From positions 3,968,001-4,032,000 of the forward strand of contig NZ_CP133671.1 in assembly GCF_031326345.1 (NCBI RefSeq): DNA of 64,000 nucleotides. The letters run 5' to 3'. The DNA is from Aureispira sp. CCB-E (GTDB taxonomy: Bacteria > Bacteroidota > Bacteroidia > Chitinophagales > Saprospiraceae). This document shows positions 3,773 through 36,776 of this stretch, piece after piece. Position 1 is the first letter of the stretch. Every line of letters starts with the position of its first letter. A program made the position numbers and the translations under genes. A model generated the notes under the pieces. The model was given only the letters and a program-made list of their open reading frames with translations. It did no database searches and had not been told where the DNA came from.

Positions 3773-4720
3773 ATGGAAAATACTATTGAGAATTTAGAGG
3801 CAAAATTTCAAGCTAAAATAGATGCTGAAATTAAAATAGAACCAAAGGATTGGATGCCAGAAAAGTATCGCAAAACTTTGGTACGACAAATCTCACAGCA
3901 TGCACATTCTGAAATTGTCGGAATGCTACCAGAAGGAAACTGGATTACAAGAGCTCCTTCTTTGCGTCGTAAAATTGGCTTGCTTGCCAAGGTTCAAGAC
4001 GAAGGTGGGCACGGTTTGTACTTATATAGTGCTGCCGAAACTCTAGGAACATCTAGAGAGCAAATGTTTGAAGACTTAAATTCTGGAAAAGCAAAGTATT
4101 CTAGCATCTTTAATTATCCGACATTAACGTGGGCGGATATTGGGGCTGTTGGATGGTTGGTTGATGGAGCAGCGATTATGAACCAAGTAATGTTGACACG
4201 TGCCTCTTATGGTCCGTATGCTCGTGCGATGGTGCGTATTTGTAAGGAAGAAAGTTTTCACCAACGTCAAGGTTATGAAATAACAATGGCATTGGCACAA
4301 GGAACACCCGAACAGAAAGAAATGGCACAAGATGCTCTAAATCGTTGGTGGTGGCCTTCTTTGATGATGTTTGGTCCTAACGATGCCGACTCAACCCATT
4401 CAGCGCAATCTATGGCTTGGAAAATTAAGCGAAAATCTAACGATGAGTTGCGTCAAGCTTTTGTAGATGCAACAGTGCCTCAAGCAGAATTTTTAGGCTT
4501 AACGATTCCTGACAAAGATTTAAAATGGAATGAGGAGCGTGGGCATTACGACTTTGGCGAAATCGATTGGGAAGAATTTTGGCAAGTTGTAAAAGGCGGT
4601 GGTCCTTGTAACAAGGATCGTTTAAAAGCTCGCAACAAAGCTTATAAAGAGGGTGCTTGGGTACGCGAAGCAGCCATGGCTCATGCTGAAAAACGTGCTG
4701 AAAGAAGAAAAAATAATTAA
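3773..4720 (+). CDS. paaA: 1,2-phenylacetyl-CoA epoxidase, catalytic subunit PaaA
   Basis: The oxygenase subunit inserts one oxygen atom into phenylacetyl-CoA at a carboxylate-bridged diiron centre. At 315 residues it has the normal family length. Metal-ligand motifs are visible as DEGGH (76-80) and EESFH (159-163, the ExxH pattern). The tract [16 protein letters not shown] and the basic C-terminus are also typical. PaaB starts 30 bases later, consistent with co-transcription. This subunit works as a complex with PaaC and receives electrons from PaaE. Confidence 0.95.
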
Positions 4721-4750
4721 CTATTAGGAACCACTAAAAATAAAACCATT

Positions 4751-5038
4751 ATGTCTAAGAAAGATTGGCCTCTATGGGAGGTGTTTATCAGAAGTAAAGC
4801 GGGGTTGCACCACAAACATGCTGGAAGTTTGCATGCTGCTGATGAAGAAATGGCAATTGAAAACGCTCGTGATGTTTATACTCGTAGACAAGAAGGTGTG
4901 AGTATCTGGGTGGTAGAATCCAAGCATATTACAGCTTCTATACCAGACGATGGCGACATGCTGTTTGAAGCAGCTAAAACAAAACCGTATCGCCATCCTA
5001 CATTCTATGAAATCCCAGATGAAATCGGACATATGTAG
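4751..5038 (+). CDS. paaB: 1,2-phenylacetyl-CoA epoxidase subunit PaaB
   Basis: A small (95-residue) subunit of the phenylacetyl-CoA epoxidase. The sequence WPLWEVFIRSKAGLHHKHAGSLHA and the segment around ARDVYTRRQEGVSIWVV are characteristic of PaaB. The family bridges PaaAC dimers and is required for full activity, although it has no catalytic residues. It lies between paaA and paaC on the same strand. Confidence 0.94.
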   Translation: MSKKDWPLWEVFIRSKAGLHHKHAGSLHAADEEMAIENARDVYTRRQEGVSIWVVESKHITASIPDDGDMLFEAAKTKPYRHPTFYEIPDEIGHM

Positions 5039-5167
5039 GAGGCTTTGATAAAAATAGGTCTATTTCTGAAATGATAACTTGTGTGTATAGTTGGTTGATT
5101 TTTAATAAAATTAGCTAAAGAGAGGAATGGATGGAAGTTATAAAAAATAATTAAACAACAATAGCTT

Positions 5168-5926
5168 GTGGAAAATAAAGAAGCTTTATTCGAATATGTA
5201 TTGCGTATAGCTGATAATGCGCTAATTTTGGGACATCGTGTTTCTGAATGGTGTGGGCATGGTCCTAGTTTAGAAACCGATATTGGGTTGACCAATATTG
5301 CCTTGGATTTAGTAGGGCATGCTCGTGTTTTGTTGCAATATGCTGCACAGGTCGAAGGAAAAGGACGGTCAGAAGATGACTTGGCTTTCTTGCGTGATAT
5401 TCGTGATTTTAAGAACGTTTTATTGGTCGAGCAGCCCAATGGAAATTTTGCCAATACAATCGCTCGTCAATTTTTATTCGATACCTTTAATTATCACTTT
5501 TTTGCTGCTCTAAGCAACAGCAAGGATGAAAAATTGGTCGCCATCGCCAAAAAATCAATTAAGGAATTAACATATCATTACCGATATAGTGCTGAATGGG
5601 TCATCCGCTTGGGAGATGGAACCGAAGAGAGCCATGAGAAAATGCAAGAGGCTTTAGACGATATTTGGGATTATGCTGGTGAATTGTTTGTGGCAGATGA
5701 GGTAGATGCTAAAATGCTTGAAGAGGGAATAGGAGTAGATTTGGAAGCCATCCGACCGCTTTGGGAGGAGCGTGTAAATGCGATTTTAAAAGAAGCTACA
5801 TTAACACGTCCTAAAGATGGGTGGATTCAAAAAGGCGGCAAGCAAGGGAAACATACCGAACAAATGGGGCTTGTCTTAGCAGAAATGCAATGGATGCAGC
5901 GTGCCTATCCTGGGATGGAATGGTAG
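5168..5926 (+). CDS. paaC: 1,2-phenylacetyl-CoA epoxidase structural subunit PaaC (GTG start)
   Basis: PaaC is a ferritin-fold paralogue of PaaA that lacks the metal site and stabilises the catalytic subunit. At 252 residues it is full length. The segments GHRVSEWCGHGPSLETDIGL, YHYRYSAEWVIRLGDGTEES and the ending MQWMQRAYPGMEW are typical. The start is a GTG at 5168, since no in-frame ATG fits the family N-terminus (ENKEALFEYVLRIADNALILG). The 129-base gap after paaB is long for this cluster. No paaD follows; the next gene is on the other strand. Confidence 0.93.
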   Translation: MENKEALFEYVLRIADNALILGHRVSEWCGHGPSLETDIGLTNIALDLVGHARVLLQYAAQVEGKGRSEDDLAFLRDIRDFKNVLLVEQPNGNFANTIARQFLFDTFNYHFFAALSNSKDEKLVAIAKKSIKELTYHYRYSAEWVIRLGDGTEESHEKMQEALDDIWDYAGELFVADEVDAKMLEEGIGVDLEAIRPLWEERVNAILKEATLTRPKDGWIQKGGKQGKHTEQMGLVLAEMQWMQRAYPGMEW

Positions 5927-7601: not shown

Positions 7602-10295
7602 CTATTTTGTAGATAGAGCAGGCAAGGCAATTTCAAATTGTACTTTGAAGGGATCACGTCGGTCTGTCCGTTTCCTATAATGGATATTTCCGTTATGATT
7701 GTCAATAATTTGGTGAATTAGATAGCCCCCGATTCCAGAGTGCCCTGTTTGCCCTGCATAATTTCCATAACCAATAAAATCTTCGAAAGAAAAGTTATTA
7801 GGAAACTCTTTTCCGTCGTTTTTATAAAGAATAATCACCTCTTGTTGATCAGAAGATAAGCCAACTCTAAATTGAATGGTATACTGCTTGTTGTTTTGCA
7901 CAAAACCATGGCGTTTCGCATTGTCAATAAGGTTGGTGAAAACAGTTGTAAGTTGTGTTTTATCAATGAGGGTATAGATTGGAATTTCTCGGCCTTTGGC
8001 ATCCTCCTCTACTTCAATCTGAATTCTAAAACTTGTTTCTTGCGTATAAAATTGTTGAATTTCTTCTAAAAAATCTTTAATTTTCGTTCGTTCTAGATTG
8101 AGTTTACTTCGATCCGCTTTGATAATATCTCCTGTTGAATCAAGGCTATTGATAGAATGAATGAGTATGGATTCTATTCGTTCTATCGTGGTGGCTAAGG
8201 TGTCAACAGTATCAATATCTTCGTCCTCAAAAACGGGAAACATGGGTTCTGAAAAATTAATTGGTGTTTGATCTTCCTCTTTGTCTTTTAGAAAATATTT
8301 TAAGTTTTTAATTTCTGTAAGAACAGCAGGCAATCGATTGCCTAATTCATGTTGCAGGGAAGAAATAATTTTATATTGTTCATTTTGAGCTCTTTGTTTG
8401 CCTAAATTTAAATCATTTCGCAATTGCTCTACTTTTTCTTCCTCTTCTTGAAGCAAACGAACTTTTGTTTCTTTGATAATTGTCGCCTGTTCTTCTAAAG
8501 GGGGTAAATTGATTTGAAGCCCTTCAAAGTATTCTTCCGTAATCATGTTGTGTTGATAATCCATCTTATACATATTGAGTTGCTGTATAAAAAGATCATC
8601 GTGTAGTTGCAAAATGAGGTATTCAATTAAGAGGCGATCTTCGTCCACTCGAAAGGTCATGATGTCTTCATTAACCAATATAGGAGTACCTTGAAAAACA
8701 AAGTAACTTGTTCTTAATTTTCGACCAGATCGGTTGACCAATAAAATAGATTCATTAATCAGTTGACCAGCAACTTGCTGCACCTCATCAGTGTTGGGAA
8801 TATTTTTAGGGTCAATTAGATAGTTGGTAATGGATTTACCCAAATTCTGAGGGCGTATGTAAGGAATATCTTGATAAGGTGTTTCGTCAAACCACAATGC
8901 TGGGCGTTCGGATCTAAAAATTTCTTTGAGCCGAATTAACTGTCCGTGCGCTTCTAACAATCGAAGTTGTGCAATAAAAGGAGAGGCGTAACGCTTGGCA
9001 TCTAAATTATAATCGTTTAAGATAACTTGATGTAAAGGAATTGTAGAAACGCAAGCCTCCAGTTCTGGTGTGCAGTCGGTGTCTAAGTGATGAAAGACGG
9101 CCCGAATACATTCTACATGTTTGGGAGTTAATTCACGGTTTAGTTTGGATTGCGTTTTGACATCCAAGTTGGCACCGTTTATAAATAAAATTTGCTCTTT
9201 TCGCAAAGTAGTTTTATTTTTATTAATCACCAAAATACAGATGGGAATACCCGTAGAATGCAACAACCCATAAGGCAACGTGATAACAGCTTCTAATAAA
9301 TCTCTACGAATAAGAAATTCTCTCAGTTTTCTATCTTCTTTATCATCTACTAGCGTATTAATTGGCATGATGGTAATTAAGCGCCCTTTGGTGTTTAATT
9401 TGGACAACATGAGTTGTATAAACAGGCTATTGCAAGGAATATGTGGTGTACTTACGTCAAAAGGAATAGAAGTATAGGACTGTTCTTTGATTTTTTCTGT
9501 TGGTGTATATTGACCAAAAGGAAAATGAGCAATGGCAATGTCTACTTTCAAATCTTCTTGTAAGTCATCTACTAAGGTGTTTCCGTTACTGATTTGGGCT
9601 TGATAAGCTCCATTTGCCCATAAATTCATTTTACAGAGTGCCCAGATATGAATATTTTGTTCTTGAGCAAAAATATGCAAGTTGGGCTCTTTGTTTAGAA
9701 ATGCAATCAAACTAGAACCTTGACCAGCAGTAGGATCGTAGACAGATTCGTTGGTTTGGGGATTGGCAAGTTCTACTAATAATTGATTAATTGTTTTTGG
9801 GGTCGTTCGTTTAATCCCAGTATTACTTGCTCGAAGTGCGGTTCTATACAAACTGTCGTTAAAGAAACTGCCAAATTCGGAAATAGAAATGGCTTTGGTT
9901 GAGAAATCTAAATCCTCCAACACTAGAATAACTTGAATGAGTAATTGTAGATTATTTTCTTCTTGTAAAGCGAGCCCCAACGGCGCAAAAATATTTTTGA
10001 GCGAAGTATTTCGCTTGGAAAATTGCGTTAGGGTAGTAATTAGGTCGCGCATGGCTAACTCTGGATCATCAATAACTTTATTTCTAAAATTACTTGACCA
10101 AAGATAGTCTTCTGGCTCTGTTTCAATAAAATCAAAAACGTGCTCTTTTTGGAGGGCTAAAATTCGTTTGAAAAATACTAAAGAAAGTAAGACACTACTT
10201 GCGTTGTTGGCATCCCAAACACCTCGAAGGGAGTCTAAGGTCGAAAAAAAAACAGCTTCTAACTGTTGTGCATGCTCTCTGGTTTTGGTATCCAT
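7602..10295 (-). CDS. Fusion protein: type I DNA methylase-like (HsdM) + HsdS-like recognition region + histidine-kinase-like domain
   Basis: An 897-residue protein with three recognisable parts. Residues 1-600 resemble type I methylation machinery: an HsdM-like helical N-terminus (LDSLRGVWDANNASSVLLS), SAM motif I DPTAGQG (187-193), and a motif IV position reading AHFPFG (256-261) instead of NPPF/Y. HsdS-like sequence then runs from about 430 to 610 (LKEIFRSE...IPYIRPQNLG...INLPPLEEQATII). A coiled coil (605-640) leads to a phospho-acceptor-like box SSLQHELGNRL (His649). An HATPase domain follows with N-box NLIDNAKRHG (788-797), KNDG (825-828) and GHSGIGGYLI (851-860). No membrane segment, restriction subunit or response regulator is adjacent. 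The altered motif IV suggests weak or absent methylation. It may act as a DNA-bound sensor or regulator; its function is unknown. Confidence 0.85.
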   Translation of the reverse strand: MDTKTREHAQQLEAVFFSTLDSLRGVWDANNASSVLLSLVFFKRILALQKEHVFDFIETEPEDYLWSSNFRNKVIDDPELAMRDLITTLTQFSKRNTSLKNIFAPLGLALQEENNLQLLIQVILVLEDLDFSTKAISISEFGSFFNDSLYRTALRASNTGIKRTTPKTINQLLVELANPQTNESVYDPTAGQGSSLIAFLNKEPNLHIFAQEQNIHIWALCKMNLWANGAYQAQISNGNTLVDDLQEDLKVDIAIAHFPFGQYTPTEKIKEQSYTSIPFDVSTPHIPCNSLFIQLMLSKLNTKGRLITIMPINTLVDDKEDRKLREFLIRRDLLEAVITLPYGLLHSTGIPICILVINKNKTTLRKEQILFINGANLDVKTQSKLNRELTPKHVECIRAVFHHLDTDCTPELEACVSTIPLHQVILNDYNLDAKRYASPFIAQLRLLEAHGQLIRLKEIFRSERPALWFDETPYQDIPYIRPQNLGKSITNYLIDPKNIPNTDEVQQVAGQLINESILLVNRSGRKLRTSYFVFQGTPILVNEDIMTFRVDEDRLLIEYLILQLHDDLFIQQLNMYKMDYQHNMITEEYFEGLQINLPPLEEQATIIKETKVRLLQEEEEKVEQLRNDLNLGKQRAQNEQYKIISSLQHELGNRLPAVLTEIKNLKYFLKDKEEDQTPINFSEPMFPVFEDEDIDTVDTLATTIERIESILIHSINSLDSTGDIIKADRSKLNLERTKIKDFLEEIQQFYTQETSFRIQIEVEEDAKGREIPIYTLIDKTQLTTVFTNLIDNAKRHGFVQNNKQYTIQFRVGLSSDQQEVIILYKNDGKEFPNNFSFEDFIGYGNYAGQTGHSGIGGYLIHQIIDNHNGNIHYRKRTDRRDPFKVQFEIALPALSTK

Positions 10296-34103: not shown

Positions 34104-34760
34104 TTAAATAATAAAATTATTTCTAGCTTTTTGAACCGCTTCAAGTTTAGAATGCACTTGTAGCTTTTTGTAGATTCGTTCAATGTGATTGCGAACGGTT
34201 TTGGGAGAACGATTTAAATTAGTAGCAATTTTTGTATTAGAAAGACCATGACTGAGCTGTTCTAAAATTTCAACTTCTCGCTTGGTTAGTTTGATCTCTT
34301 CTTGATTAAAATTAGCTTTTTTTAGATTGGGGTTTCGCAATAGTTGCAAAGCTTTTTGAGCAATAACTGGTGTCATTGCAGCACCTCCATCTATGGTTTC
34401 CAAGATACTTTTGTGCAAATCAGAAGCATTGATTTCTTTTAACAAATAGCCGTTGGCACCTGCCTGTATGGCTTTAAAAATACTATCATAATCGTCTAAA
34501 ACCGTTAACATAACAATCTTAATTTGTGGGTATTTCTTTTTGACATTAGCCGTTGCTTCAATGCCATTTATAATAGGCATTTCAATATCCATTAAGATCA
34601 AATCCAAGTGAAAGTTGCCCTCCAATTTTTCCATTAATTCTTTGCCATTGGTAGCAATGGTAACTACTTGTAAGTCATCAAAAAAAGATAATTTTTCTTT
34701 AATATTTTGTAACAAGAAGATATTATCTTCTGCGATAGCAATTTGAATGGGCATTGTCAA
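34104..34760 (-). CDS. Two-component response regulator, NarL/LuxR type
   Basis: A 218-residue DNA-binding regulator. The receiver domain has acidic pocket AEDN (10-13) and phospho-acceptor Asp58 in LILMDIEMP. The LuxR-type helix-turn-helix is at about 155-210 (LTKREVEILEQLSHGLSNTKIATNLNRSPKTVRNHIERIYKKL). Its partner is the TPR histidine kinase encoded just upstream on the same strand (72-base gap). Targets are unknown. Confidence 0.94.
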   Translation of the reverse strand: MTMPIQIAIAEDNIFLLQNIKEKLSFFDDLQVVTIATNGKELMEKLEGNFHLDLILMDIEMPIINGIEATANVKKKYPQIKIVMLTVLDDYDSIFKAIQAGANGYLLKEINASDLHKSILETIDGGAAMTPVIAQKALQLLRNPNLKKANFNQEEIKLTKREVEILEQLSHGLSNTKIATNLNRSPKTVRNHIERIYKKLQVHSKLEAVQKARNNFII

Positions 34761-34832
34761 TAATTATCGGTTAAAAACAAATTACGTGGCTTCTAGGGGC
34801 TCTGTTGACAAAATGAGATAAGAAGCCGTTTC

Positions 34833-36776
34833 TTAATGCACAACGTGTTTTAGAGTGACAAAAGTTCCTACGTTCAGTTGAGAGTTTATTTCTAAATCAG
34901 CGCCCATTTCTTGGGCACGTTTGCGCATATTGTGTAAGCCATTGCTTAAGGTGGCATTAGCTACGTCAAAACCTTTGCCATTATCACAAATTTTAAAATA
35001 GAGCGTACCGTTTGTTTTATTAATACTAATTTCTATTTGATCTGCTTCGGCATATTTTAAGGCATTGTTCAAGGCCTCTTGGATGATTCTATAAATATTC
35101 ATTCCTTCAACCGAAGACAAAGTGCCGTTAACAGGCAGTTGATCGTTGATGATAAAACGAAAATCAATATGCTGCGTGGCATCCTTAGCAGCGACTAGGA
35201 AAGTATTAATGCGTTGTTTTAAATCATAGAAGCTAATGGCATCTTTGTTCATTGCCCAAATGGTATCTCGCAAATCTTGAATGGTATTTGAGGTAAAGGT
35301 TGTAATTTTTTTAAGCTTTTTGCTCAATGAATTTTCTAATTGAAAGGCATACTTTAGGTTGTCAATAGAGGAAATAATAAAAGTTAATTGAGCTCCAATA
35401 TTGTCGTGCAAATCTCTAGAAATTTGATACCGTTGTTGGGCTAATTTTTTCTGAGTTTCTATTTTTCCCATGGCCTCTTTCAGTTGATGTTCCTTTTGAA
35501 GCTGTAGATTGCGTTGTCTCAAATAGTTAAAAATTAAAACTCCAATCAAGATCAAAATAACAGCCATACTCCCCAAGGAAAGCAGCTGGATATTTTTTTG
35601 GTTAATCTCTAAGGCTTGTTGATCAATTTGTGCTTGTTGCAATAAAATTTCTTTTTCCTTTTTTTCGGCTTGGTATTTTGATTCAGCTTCAGCAATAGCT
35701 TGGGTGCTTTGCTCATTAATCATGGAATCTTTGGCATTAATATGCAAATTAAGATACTCATTTGCCTTTTGGAATTGCTGCTGTTCGCTCCATAATTGGG
35801 CTAAGCTTTTATAGGTTTCCATTTCAATTTCTCTCAAGCTTTTCTCTTTTGACAAAGCCAAGCTTTTTAAGTAAAACCTTTCTGCTTCTTTGGGTTTGCC
35901 TTGATCTTTACTAACAGCCGCAAAATTATGGTACGAGTAAGCTGCCCCTCTGTTGTCTCCTAATTTTTCTCGCAATTGTATAGATTGATTGTGATAAATA
36001 ACCGCAGAGTCCAAATTTCTTAAACTATGATGGGCGACAGCTATATTGTTAAGATTAATAGACATTTCCTGTTTGTCCTTTAATTTTTGGCTAAGCGTAT
36101 AGGATTTTTTATAGTAACTTAGAGCCTTTTGGTACTTCTTTTGGTAGTTGTACAATGCTCCAATATTGTTATAACCTTTAGTTAAAATTTCAATATCTCC
36201 TAGACGTTCTTCAATGGCGATTGCTTTTTCAAAATATTCTAATGTTTTATCTATGTTTTTTTGATAATAATAAACAATCCCAATATTGTTATATGCTTGA
36301 GCAATTCCTTTAGGGTTGTTGGTTTGTTCTTCGGCTTTTAATGCTTCAAAATAAAGTGCTAATGCCTTTTCGTGTGCTCCTGTTCTGGTATGTATAATCG
36401 CAATATTGTTGAGTACAATAGCAAAACCTGCCGTGTAGTCGTGTTGTTCACAAATTTCTAGTGCTTCGTTATAATAATCTAAAGCGGTAGGATAATCTGT
36501 TTTGCGTTCGTAGTAATTGCCTGTTACATTTAAACAACGGATAATTCCTTGATAAAGACCTAGTTTTTTTGCCAACTGAAGCCCCTGCTTAGCGTAAACA
36601 ACAGAAGAGTCCAAATGAGTCGTTAAATATTGTTGTGCAATTGTTTGATAAGCAATTACTTTATTGCTATCATTAGGCATACTGGGCAAGGCTTGAACAA
36701 GGCTGTCAGTATTATTTTGAGCTTGTGTATATATGGTCCAAAATAGAAGTAGGACAAGGGAAAATTTGGATGGCAT
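34833..36776 (-). CDS. TPR-containing sensor histidine kinase (HisKA_3 type)
   Basis: A 647-residue inner-membrane kinase. A signal sequence (1-19) precedes about seven tetratricopeptide repeats (about 80-350) that should lie in the periplasm. A coiled coil (360-395), one membrane helix (398-418) and a second coiled coil follow. The HisKA_3 box is YQISRDLHDNIGAQL with His457. The HATPase domain has the N-box (IIQEALNNALKYAEADQ), DNGKGFD (598-604) and GLHNMRKRAQEMGA. This is the NarX/DesK-like class that pairs with LuxR-type regulators, such as the one next to it. The signal is unknown. Confidence 0.93.
   Translation of the reverse strand: MPSKFSLVLLLFWTIYTQAQNNTDSLVQALPSMPNDSNKVIAYQTIAQQYLTTHLDSSVVYAKQGLQLAKKLGLYQGIIRCLNVTGNYYERKTDYPTALDYYNEALEICEQHDYTAGFAIVLNNIAIIHTRTGAHEKALALYFEALKAEEQTNNPKGIAQAYNNIGIVYYYQKNIDKTLEYFEKAIAIEERLGDIEILTKGYNNIGALYNYQKKYQKALSYYKKSYTLSQKLKDKQEMSINLNNIAVAHHSLRNLDSAVIYHNQSIQLREKLGDNRGAAYSYHNFAAVSKDQGKPKEAERFYLKSLALSKEKSLREIEMETYKSLAQLWSEQQQFQKANEYLNLHINAKDSMINEQSTQAIAEAESKYQAEKKEKEILLQQAQIDQQALEINQKNIQLLSLGSMAVILILIGVLIFNYLRQRNLQLQKEHQLKEAMGKIETQKKLAQQRYQISRDLHDNIGAQLTFIISSIDNLKYAFQLENSLSKKLKKITTFTSNTIQDLRDTIWAMNKDAISFYDLKQRINTFLVAAKDATQHIDFRFIINDQLPVNGTLSSVEGMNIYRIIQEALNNALKYAEADQIEISINKTNGTLYFKICDNGKGFDVANATLSNGLHNMRKRAQEMGADLEINSQLNVGTFVTLKHVVH

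Follow-up and report, generated by a model that had tools for sequence, protein, structure and literature searches.

A methylase–histidine kinase fusion in Aureispira and its unlinked receiver-like partner suggest a signalling pathway that may read DNA

The fusion gene and its relatives

The window analysed here is a 64,000-nucleotide stretch (G000:C1:3968001-4032000) of the genome of the marine bacterium Aureispira sp. CCB-E, which comprises 7.39 Mb in 2 contigs. One unbroken ORF of 897 aa on the minus strand (7602-10295) combines an HsdM-like methylase, an HsdS-like recognition domain and a histidine-kinase module. This make-up had been proposed from the letters of the sequence, and Pfam matched all three parts: N6_Mtase at residues 162-439 (8979-9812, E = 1.5e-49), Methylase_S in the target-recognition domain at residues 454-608 (8472-8936, E = 5.4e-9) and HATPase_c at residues 778-883 (7647-7964, E = 7.8e-9), all on the minus strand, as are the features below. 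HsdM_N reached only E = 0.014, below the Pfam cut-off, and HisKA was not matched by Pfam at E ≤ 1. The motifs also lie where they were first described, with the SAM motif I-like DPTAGQG at residues 187-193 (9717-9737), a degenerate catalytic motif IV, HFPF, at residues 257-260 (9516-9527) and His649, the candidate phosphorylation site (8349-8351), within SSLQHELGNRL.

An assembly error had been named as a possible source of the join. This was rejected because the fusion recurs in other Bacteroidota, with other genomes carrying it at full length. One other genome of the species (G127; Aureispira sp. CCB-QB1, L137) has it at 99.8-100% identity, and the kinase region of the window is 100% identical to that strain. 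More distant genomes, including Saprospira grandis, contain full-length fusions at 43-67% identity, and further full-length fusions at 20-27% identity were found among 199 genomes of the same taxonomic family. Of ten candidate proteins submitted to Pfam, eight contained both N6_Mtase and HATPase_c. The other two (L020 and L022) are methylases without a kinase and were left out of the counts, as were stretches L048-L051, L054 and L057, which also have no kinase. Genome contigs searched with the kinase module yielded 22 loci, all Bacteroidota by title, from which L158, an ordinary kinase, was excluded to leave 21 relatives.

The methylase and kinase parts

The two catalytic motifs of the methylase part were aligned across 32 fusions and 18 HsdM controls, the latter taken from the same loci or from the window's genome. 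All 18 controls have NPPF/Y at motif IV, whereas NPPF, NPPY or NPPW is found in only 3 of the 32 fusions (L152, L017, L128). With HFPF at this position the window's protein departs from the type I HsdM sequence; the doubt first cast on methyl transfer therefore stands, and judging from the alignment the methylase part is probably without this activity. HFPF had been put forward for a test of its conservation among homologues, and it is not conserved. The ten sequences of the window's own lineage show five variants, namely HFPF (5), NFPF (2), HFAF, HFQF and NCLF. Because motif IV varies inside this lineage HFPF is not fixed, and its candidacy as a fixed new catalytic motif was rejected. An ordinary restriction-modification (R-M) gene was likewise rejected, as motif IV is lost and no hsdR lies nearby. 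Motif I (DPTAGQG) differs from the DPxxG(S/T) of the 18 controls and is degenerate in several relatives. Several more HsdM genes occur in the window's genome (L002-L006), with NPPF at motif IV in 5/5 checked.

Loss of motif IV has not been accompanied by general decay. Compared with two other Aureispira genomes (L138, L139), dN was 0.037-0.128 across five segments of the gene, while dS was ~1.2 or more, or saturated, which makes the dN/dS ratios unusable as numbers. Low dN in every segment, with dS high or saturated, argues against simple decay of the methylase part.

The original prediction had also placed an ATP-dependent domain at the C-terminus. The HATPase_c match bears this out, and further comparison refines it to the histidine-kinase type. 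The H-box histidine, His649, is kept in 32/32 aligned fusions. Aligned to an ordinary kinase by hhalign (E = 6.9e-13, 239 columns), the fusion places His649 on the histidine of that kinase's SHELKTP box and matches it at the N and G2 boxes. In a profile search of PDB sequences at E ≤ 0.001, 25/25 matches were histidine kinases, and proteins of the MutL, MORC or topoisomerase type were not found as closest solved GHKL relatives. These comparisons assign the ATP domain to the histidine kinases and not to generic GHKL ATPases. Within it the N box (N788/N792), the G1-like N826/G828 and the G2 box (G854/G856/G857) are invariant columns in 20 sequences. The N and G2 boxes are thus present, but the G1-box aspartate is replaced by Asn826 in 20/20 aligned fusions, which calls for caution on ATP use. 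From its sequence features, ATP-dependent signalling by the fusion is likely.

A structure prediction had been proposed as a check, and an AlphaFold2 model was built on 20 homologues (mean pLDDT 81.7, pTM 0.65). The model contains a single helix at residues 600-675 (8271-8498) that leads from the HsdS part into the first DHp-like helix and bears His649, a second DHp-like helix at residues 700-725 (8121-8198) and then an ATPase-like domain. Foldseek gave PacII M1M2S as the best structural match (E = 5.1e-23), in line with the HsdM-like domain. Mean pLDDT of 10-residue blocks along the first helix ranged from 52 to 92, and the lowest blocks (52, 57) fall at 631-650, just around His649; confidence was also low (53) in the ATP-lid region at 841-850. 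In the model, the HsdS coiled coil appears to run as one helix into the phosphotransfer helix, with low confidence near His649.

The receiver-like partner and the gene neighbourhoods

In ten relatives, the next downstream gene on the same strand encodes a protein of 290-390 aa with a receiver-like start. None of the ten matched a Pfam receiver family. However, the second aspartate of the acidic pair, the acceptor aspartate and the lysine are invariant in 23/23 aligned partners, and the Thr/Ser was found by reading 25 sequences. The Saprospira grandis member, modelled from 13 sequences (pLDDT 83.1), shows five strand/helix alternations of the (beta-alpha)5 kind followed by a helical domain. The response regulators PorX, RssB and FixJ headed the Foldseek matches in the PDB, which span the receiver part only, with a TM-score of about 0.3 of the query. 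The corresponding profile search of PDB sequences was weak, with a non-receiver as top match (E = 0.0052) and the best receiver at E = 0.014. On its residues and predicted fold, the partner has the features of a response regulator and is best described as receiver-like.

The C-terminal domain of eight members matched no Pfam family over its cut-off. An R-x3-E...H pattern prompted consideration of a HEPN/DUF4145-like output domain, which was supported by neither hhalign (probability 0.4% against three DUF4145 sequences) nor Pfam. Two variants were seen elsewhere. At L136 1-6686 (G482) the receiver is fused to SLFN_AlbA_2 in place of the helical output domain and is followed by AAA and McrC genes. 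At L145 10893-11834, one of four receivers submitted to PADLOC, the receiver part aligns weakly with the N-terminal part of the profile for the Shedu protein SduA (E = 0.0015).

Kinase and receiver occur in the same genomes. In the 199 genomes the kinase profile gave a match at E < 1e-76 in 16, with the next match at 6e-20, and the receiver profile (A1) matched at E ≤ 1e-15 in the same 16 and in no other; at most 11-12 candidates were scored per genome. As A1 was built from 10 of 11 adjacent partners, those ten match by construction; the five unlinked partners, G152 and the lack of a match in the remaining 183 genomes owe nothing to its construction. The pair is adjacent in 11 of the 16 genomes and unlinked in five (G000, G127, G021, G076, G056). 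The only strong match to the partner family in the window's genome (G000) falls outside the window, at G000:C1:3241003-3241923, ~734 kb from the fusion. When the receiver profile alone was run against 395 genomes of the phylum, 13 gave a match, 11 of them new, and in all 11 a kinase of the fusion type adjoins the receiver, with the M-like part present by profile in ten and absent in one. Within the genus Aureispira the receiver was found in 9/9 genomes and the fusion in 8/9. The exception is G593, a draft of ~270 contigs and 96% completeness, in which the receiver is present and the whole fusion, used as query, gave no match. In this genus the pair is near-fixed and unlinked. Kinase and receiver distances were strongly correlated (r = 0.90, 31 pairs; at most 0.48 in 5000 permutations), and remained so with the core lineage cut to the window (r = 0.73, 26 pairs), a correlation partly expected from joint inheritance; nearest neighbours of the two proteins agree in only 15/31. 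The kinase has a dedicated receiver-like partner, distant from it in the window's genome and next to it in most relatives.

Gene context was tabulated for a selection of 39 of the retrieved loci, each from a different genome, comprising 37 fusions and two M-less kinases; the further Aureispira genomes of the later search are not part of this table. The context profiles for WYL, HsdM, HsdR and HsdS derive from proteins of the tabulated loci themselves. The receiver directly follows the kinase (within 18 bp or overlapping) in 30/39 loci, and adjoins it in 13 of the 21 relatives from the contig scan. The nine loci without an adjacent receiver are the window, six other loci with Aureispira or Saprospiraceae titles, a Chitinophagales MAG and a further Aureispira MAG. 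At L139 the contig ends 122 bases past the fusion, so that adjacency cannot be judged. The genes co-occurring with homologues, which the original prediction had proposed to collect, include the receiver-like gene. Of the 39 loci, 17 have a WYL-type regulator within 4 kb and 13 have hsdM downstream within 2.2 kb. Pfam examination of ten proteins from selected loci confirmed WYL (three proteins), HsdM, HsdS, HsdR and GmrSD, while one matched NOV_C alone.

In relatives the pair is often found inside type I R-M operons. The mobilizable Myroides odoratimimus plasmid pFM-G13 (L159 5502-18915) carries a whole cassette in the order WYL, fusion, receiver, methyltransferase, specificity subunit, two more genes and HsdR. 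Its annotation calls the kinase an 'N-6 DNA methylase' and the receiver a 'hypothetical protein'. As these labels name neither role, public annotation can hide a kinase-receiver system. The receiver family was found in 3 of 72,556 plasmid records, all three from Myroides. Carriage of the pair by phages was rejected, as no relative of the kinase was found in viral contigs and no member of the receiver family in 50,697 phage records. A different setting was seen at L135 6259-9474 (G262), where an M-less kinase and a receiver of the same family lie inside a type III CRISPR locus with Cas10, Csm4, RAMPs and Cas6; the pair follows a RAMP gene and precedes a gene that weakly matches CARF. Similarity gave no support to the idea that the fusion and a neighbouring HsdS read the same site: the recognition domain had its own neighbour as best match in 1/13 cases (E = 0.52).

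As first described, neither HsdR nor a response regulator adjoins the window's fusion, and no match to the HsdR profile was found in the first 22 kb. In the Aureispira relatives L038, L138 and L141 the fusion is flanked, by reading, by bioB with a SEC-C protein and, at its other end, by a ROK kinase. Although the relatives' pair is often placed in type I R-M operons, this housekeeping neighbourhood means that location lends no support to the originally suggested defence role for this copy. Two other features of the window were noted by reading. A stretch at 3773-5926, near the fusion, resembles a phenylacetate degradation (paa) cluster, and ~24 kb away, at 34104-36776, an ordinary-looking response regulator (34104-34760, minus strand; judged by its start) lies beside a 647-aa ORF resembling a sensor kinase. 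This regulator is outside the partner family. Rfam gave no match at gathering score, and promoter- and terminator-like matches were no more numerous than in shuffles.

A candidate two-component system with a methylase-derived input

Taken together, these data make it probable that the fusion and its partner form a two-component system, in which the sensor is a dead type I methylase reading DNA and the partner is a dedicated receiver-like protein. The original interpretation holds for a real fusion with doubtful methyl transfer and likely ATP-dependent signalling; what changes is the type of the ATP domain and the existence of a dedicated partner. The fusion would act as the sensor histidine kinase. 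Its input domain would be the modification unit of a type I R-M system, HsdM with one HsdS-type recognition domain, which has probably lost methyl transfer while still binding DNA and perhaps SAM. The coiled coil of the HsdS part would continue into the dimerisation and phosphotransfer helix with His649. Given this continuity, a dimer engaging DNA, or its methylation state, would be expected to alter kinase activity, and, provided that the stretch modelled with low confidence is correct, the helix would couple DNA engagement physically to the kinase. The phosphoryl group would then pass to the dedicated receiver-like protein with its helical output domain. We infer the DNA reading, the phosphotransfer between the two proteins, the dimer geometry and the output, whereas the computed results are the domain architecture, the missing motif IV, the conserved residues of kinase and receiver, their co-occurrence and the predicted folds.

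The fusion shares N6_Mtase and Methylase_S with type I R-M systems (HsdM2S; PacII M1M2S, EcoKI, EcoR124I). It differs from them in being one chain with one recognition domain, in having lost motif IV and gained a kinase, and in the absence of hsdR beside it. It resembles two-component sensor kinases in its H, N and G2 boxes, predicted DHp helices and coiled-coil input, but not in its methylase-derived input, divergent H box and asparagine at the G1 aspartate. Detocs is a defensive two-component system whose sensor has a TPR-type input. The two have in common a two-component logic tied to defence; the fusion differs in its methylase-like input (no TPR was matched by Pfam at E ≤ 1) and in that the receiver's output domain matches no Pfam family over its cut-off. 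The methylation-associated defence system MADS includes MAD2, and MAD2-type profiles match the methylase part of the fusion, but at 27.5 bits, below the NCBIfam cut-off of 720. A literature search, with most subscription papers and preprints outside its reach, returned no description of the kinase-receiver system, and the fusion is not described in the accessible portions of PMC7641849, PMC2292703 and PMC7159879.

GHKL ATPases of the MORC/paraMORC kind occur with R-M genes, according to PMC2292703. The fusion is similar in tying a GHKL-type ATP domain to R-M genes, and hsdM directly downstream in 13/39 loci would suit an ATPase that remodels DNA or protein complexes and in which the histidine is incidental. 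However, the fusion has a histidine-kinase subtype of this domain, with 25/25 PDB profile matches being histidine kinases, a histidine kept in 32/32 fusions and a receiver-like protein with which it co-occurs, so that we regard a remodeller as very unlikely. A working adenine methyltransferase with the kinase module merely as its regulator would be consistent with the retained N6_Mtase domain and motif I-like glycines, with the low dN in five segments against two other Aureispira genomes and with the NPPF/Y/W of 3/32 fusions. Motif IV argues against it, since HFPF varies to HFAF, HFQF, NFPF and NCLF while the controls are NPPF/Y in 18/18, and we consider this explanation quite unlikely.

The pair could also be a kinase and receiver whose M-S part has left DNA and serves as a scaffold or as a sensor of SAM or a metabolite. 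The recognition domain has diverged faster than the kinase, with identities of 30-32% compared with 59-60% for Saprospira and the Chitinophagales MAG, and motif I is degenerate in several relatives, both of which would fit such a change. On the other hand, the window's recognition domain still matches Methylase_S and relatives are located in R-M operons, and for these reasons we think it unlikely.

Within the preferred reading of a two-component system, a more specific and tentative proposal, to which we give slightly less than even chances, is that the fusion belongs to a class of kinases built on a decommissioned methylase, an R-M guard or regulator module domesticated as a near-fixed epigenetic or DNA-status sensor in Aureispira and Saprospira. 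Such a sensor would read a DNA site or its methylation inside the cell and phosphorylate the dedicated receiver. The possibility, held with the same reserve, is that this phosphorelay arose in mobile R-M operons.

The usual inputs of two-component sensors are small molecules, membranes or light, and to our knowledge no such sensor has been established with DNA sequence or methylation in that place. The finding of the missing partner elsewhere in the genome suggests a signalling pathway that may read DNA. If this is true, restriction-modification would be linked to phosphorelay signalling, a role would be explained for the receiver-like genes in many such type I operons of Bacteroidota, and cells could sense foreign or under-methylated DNA.
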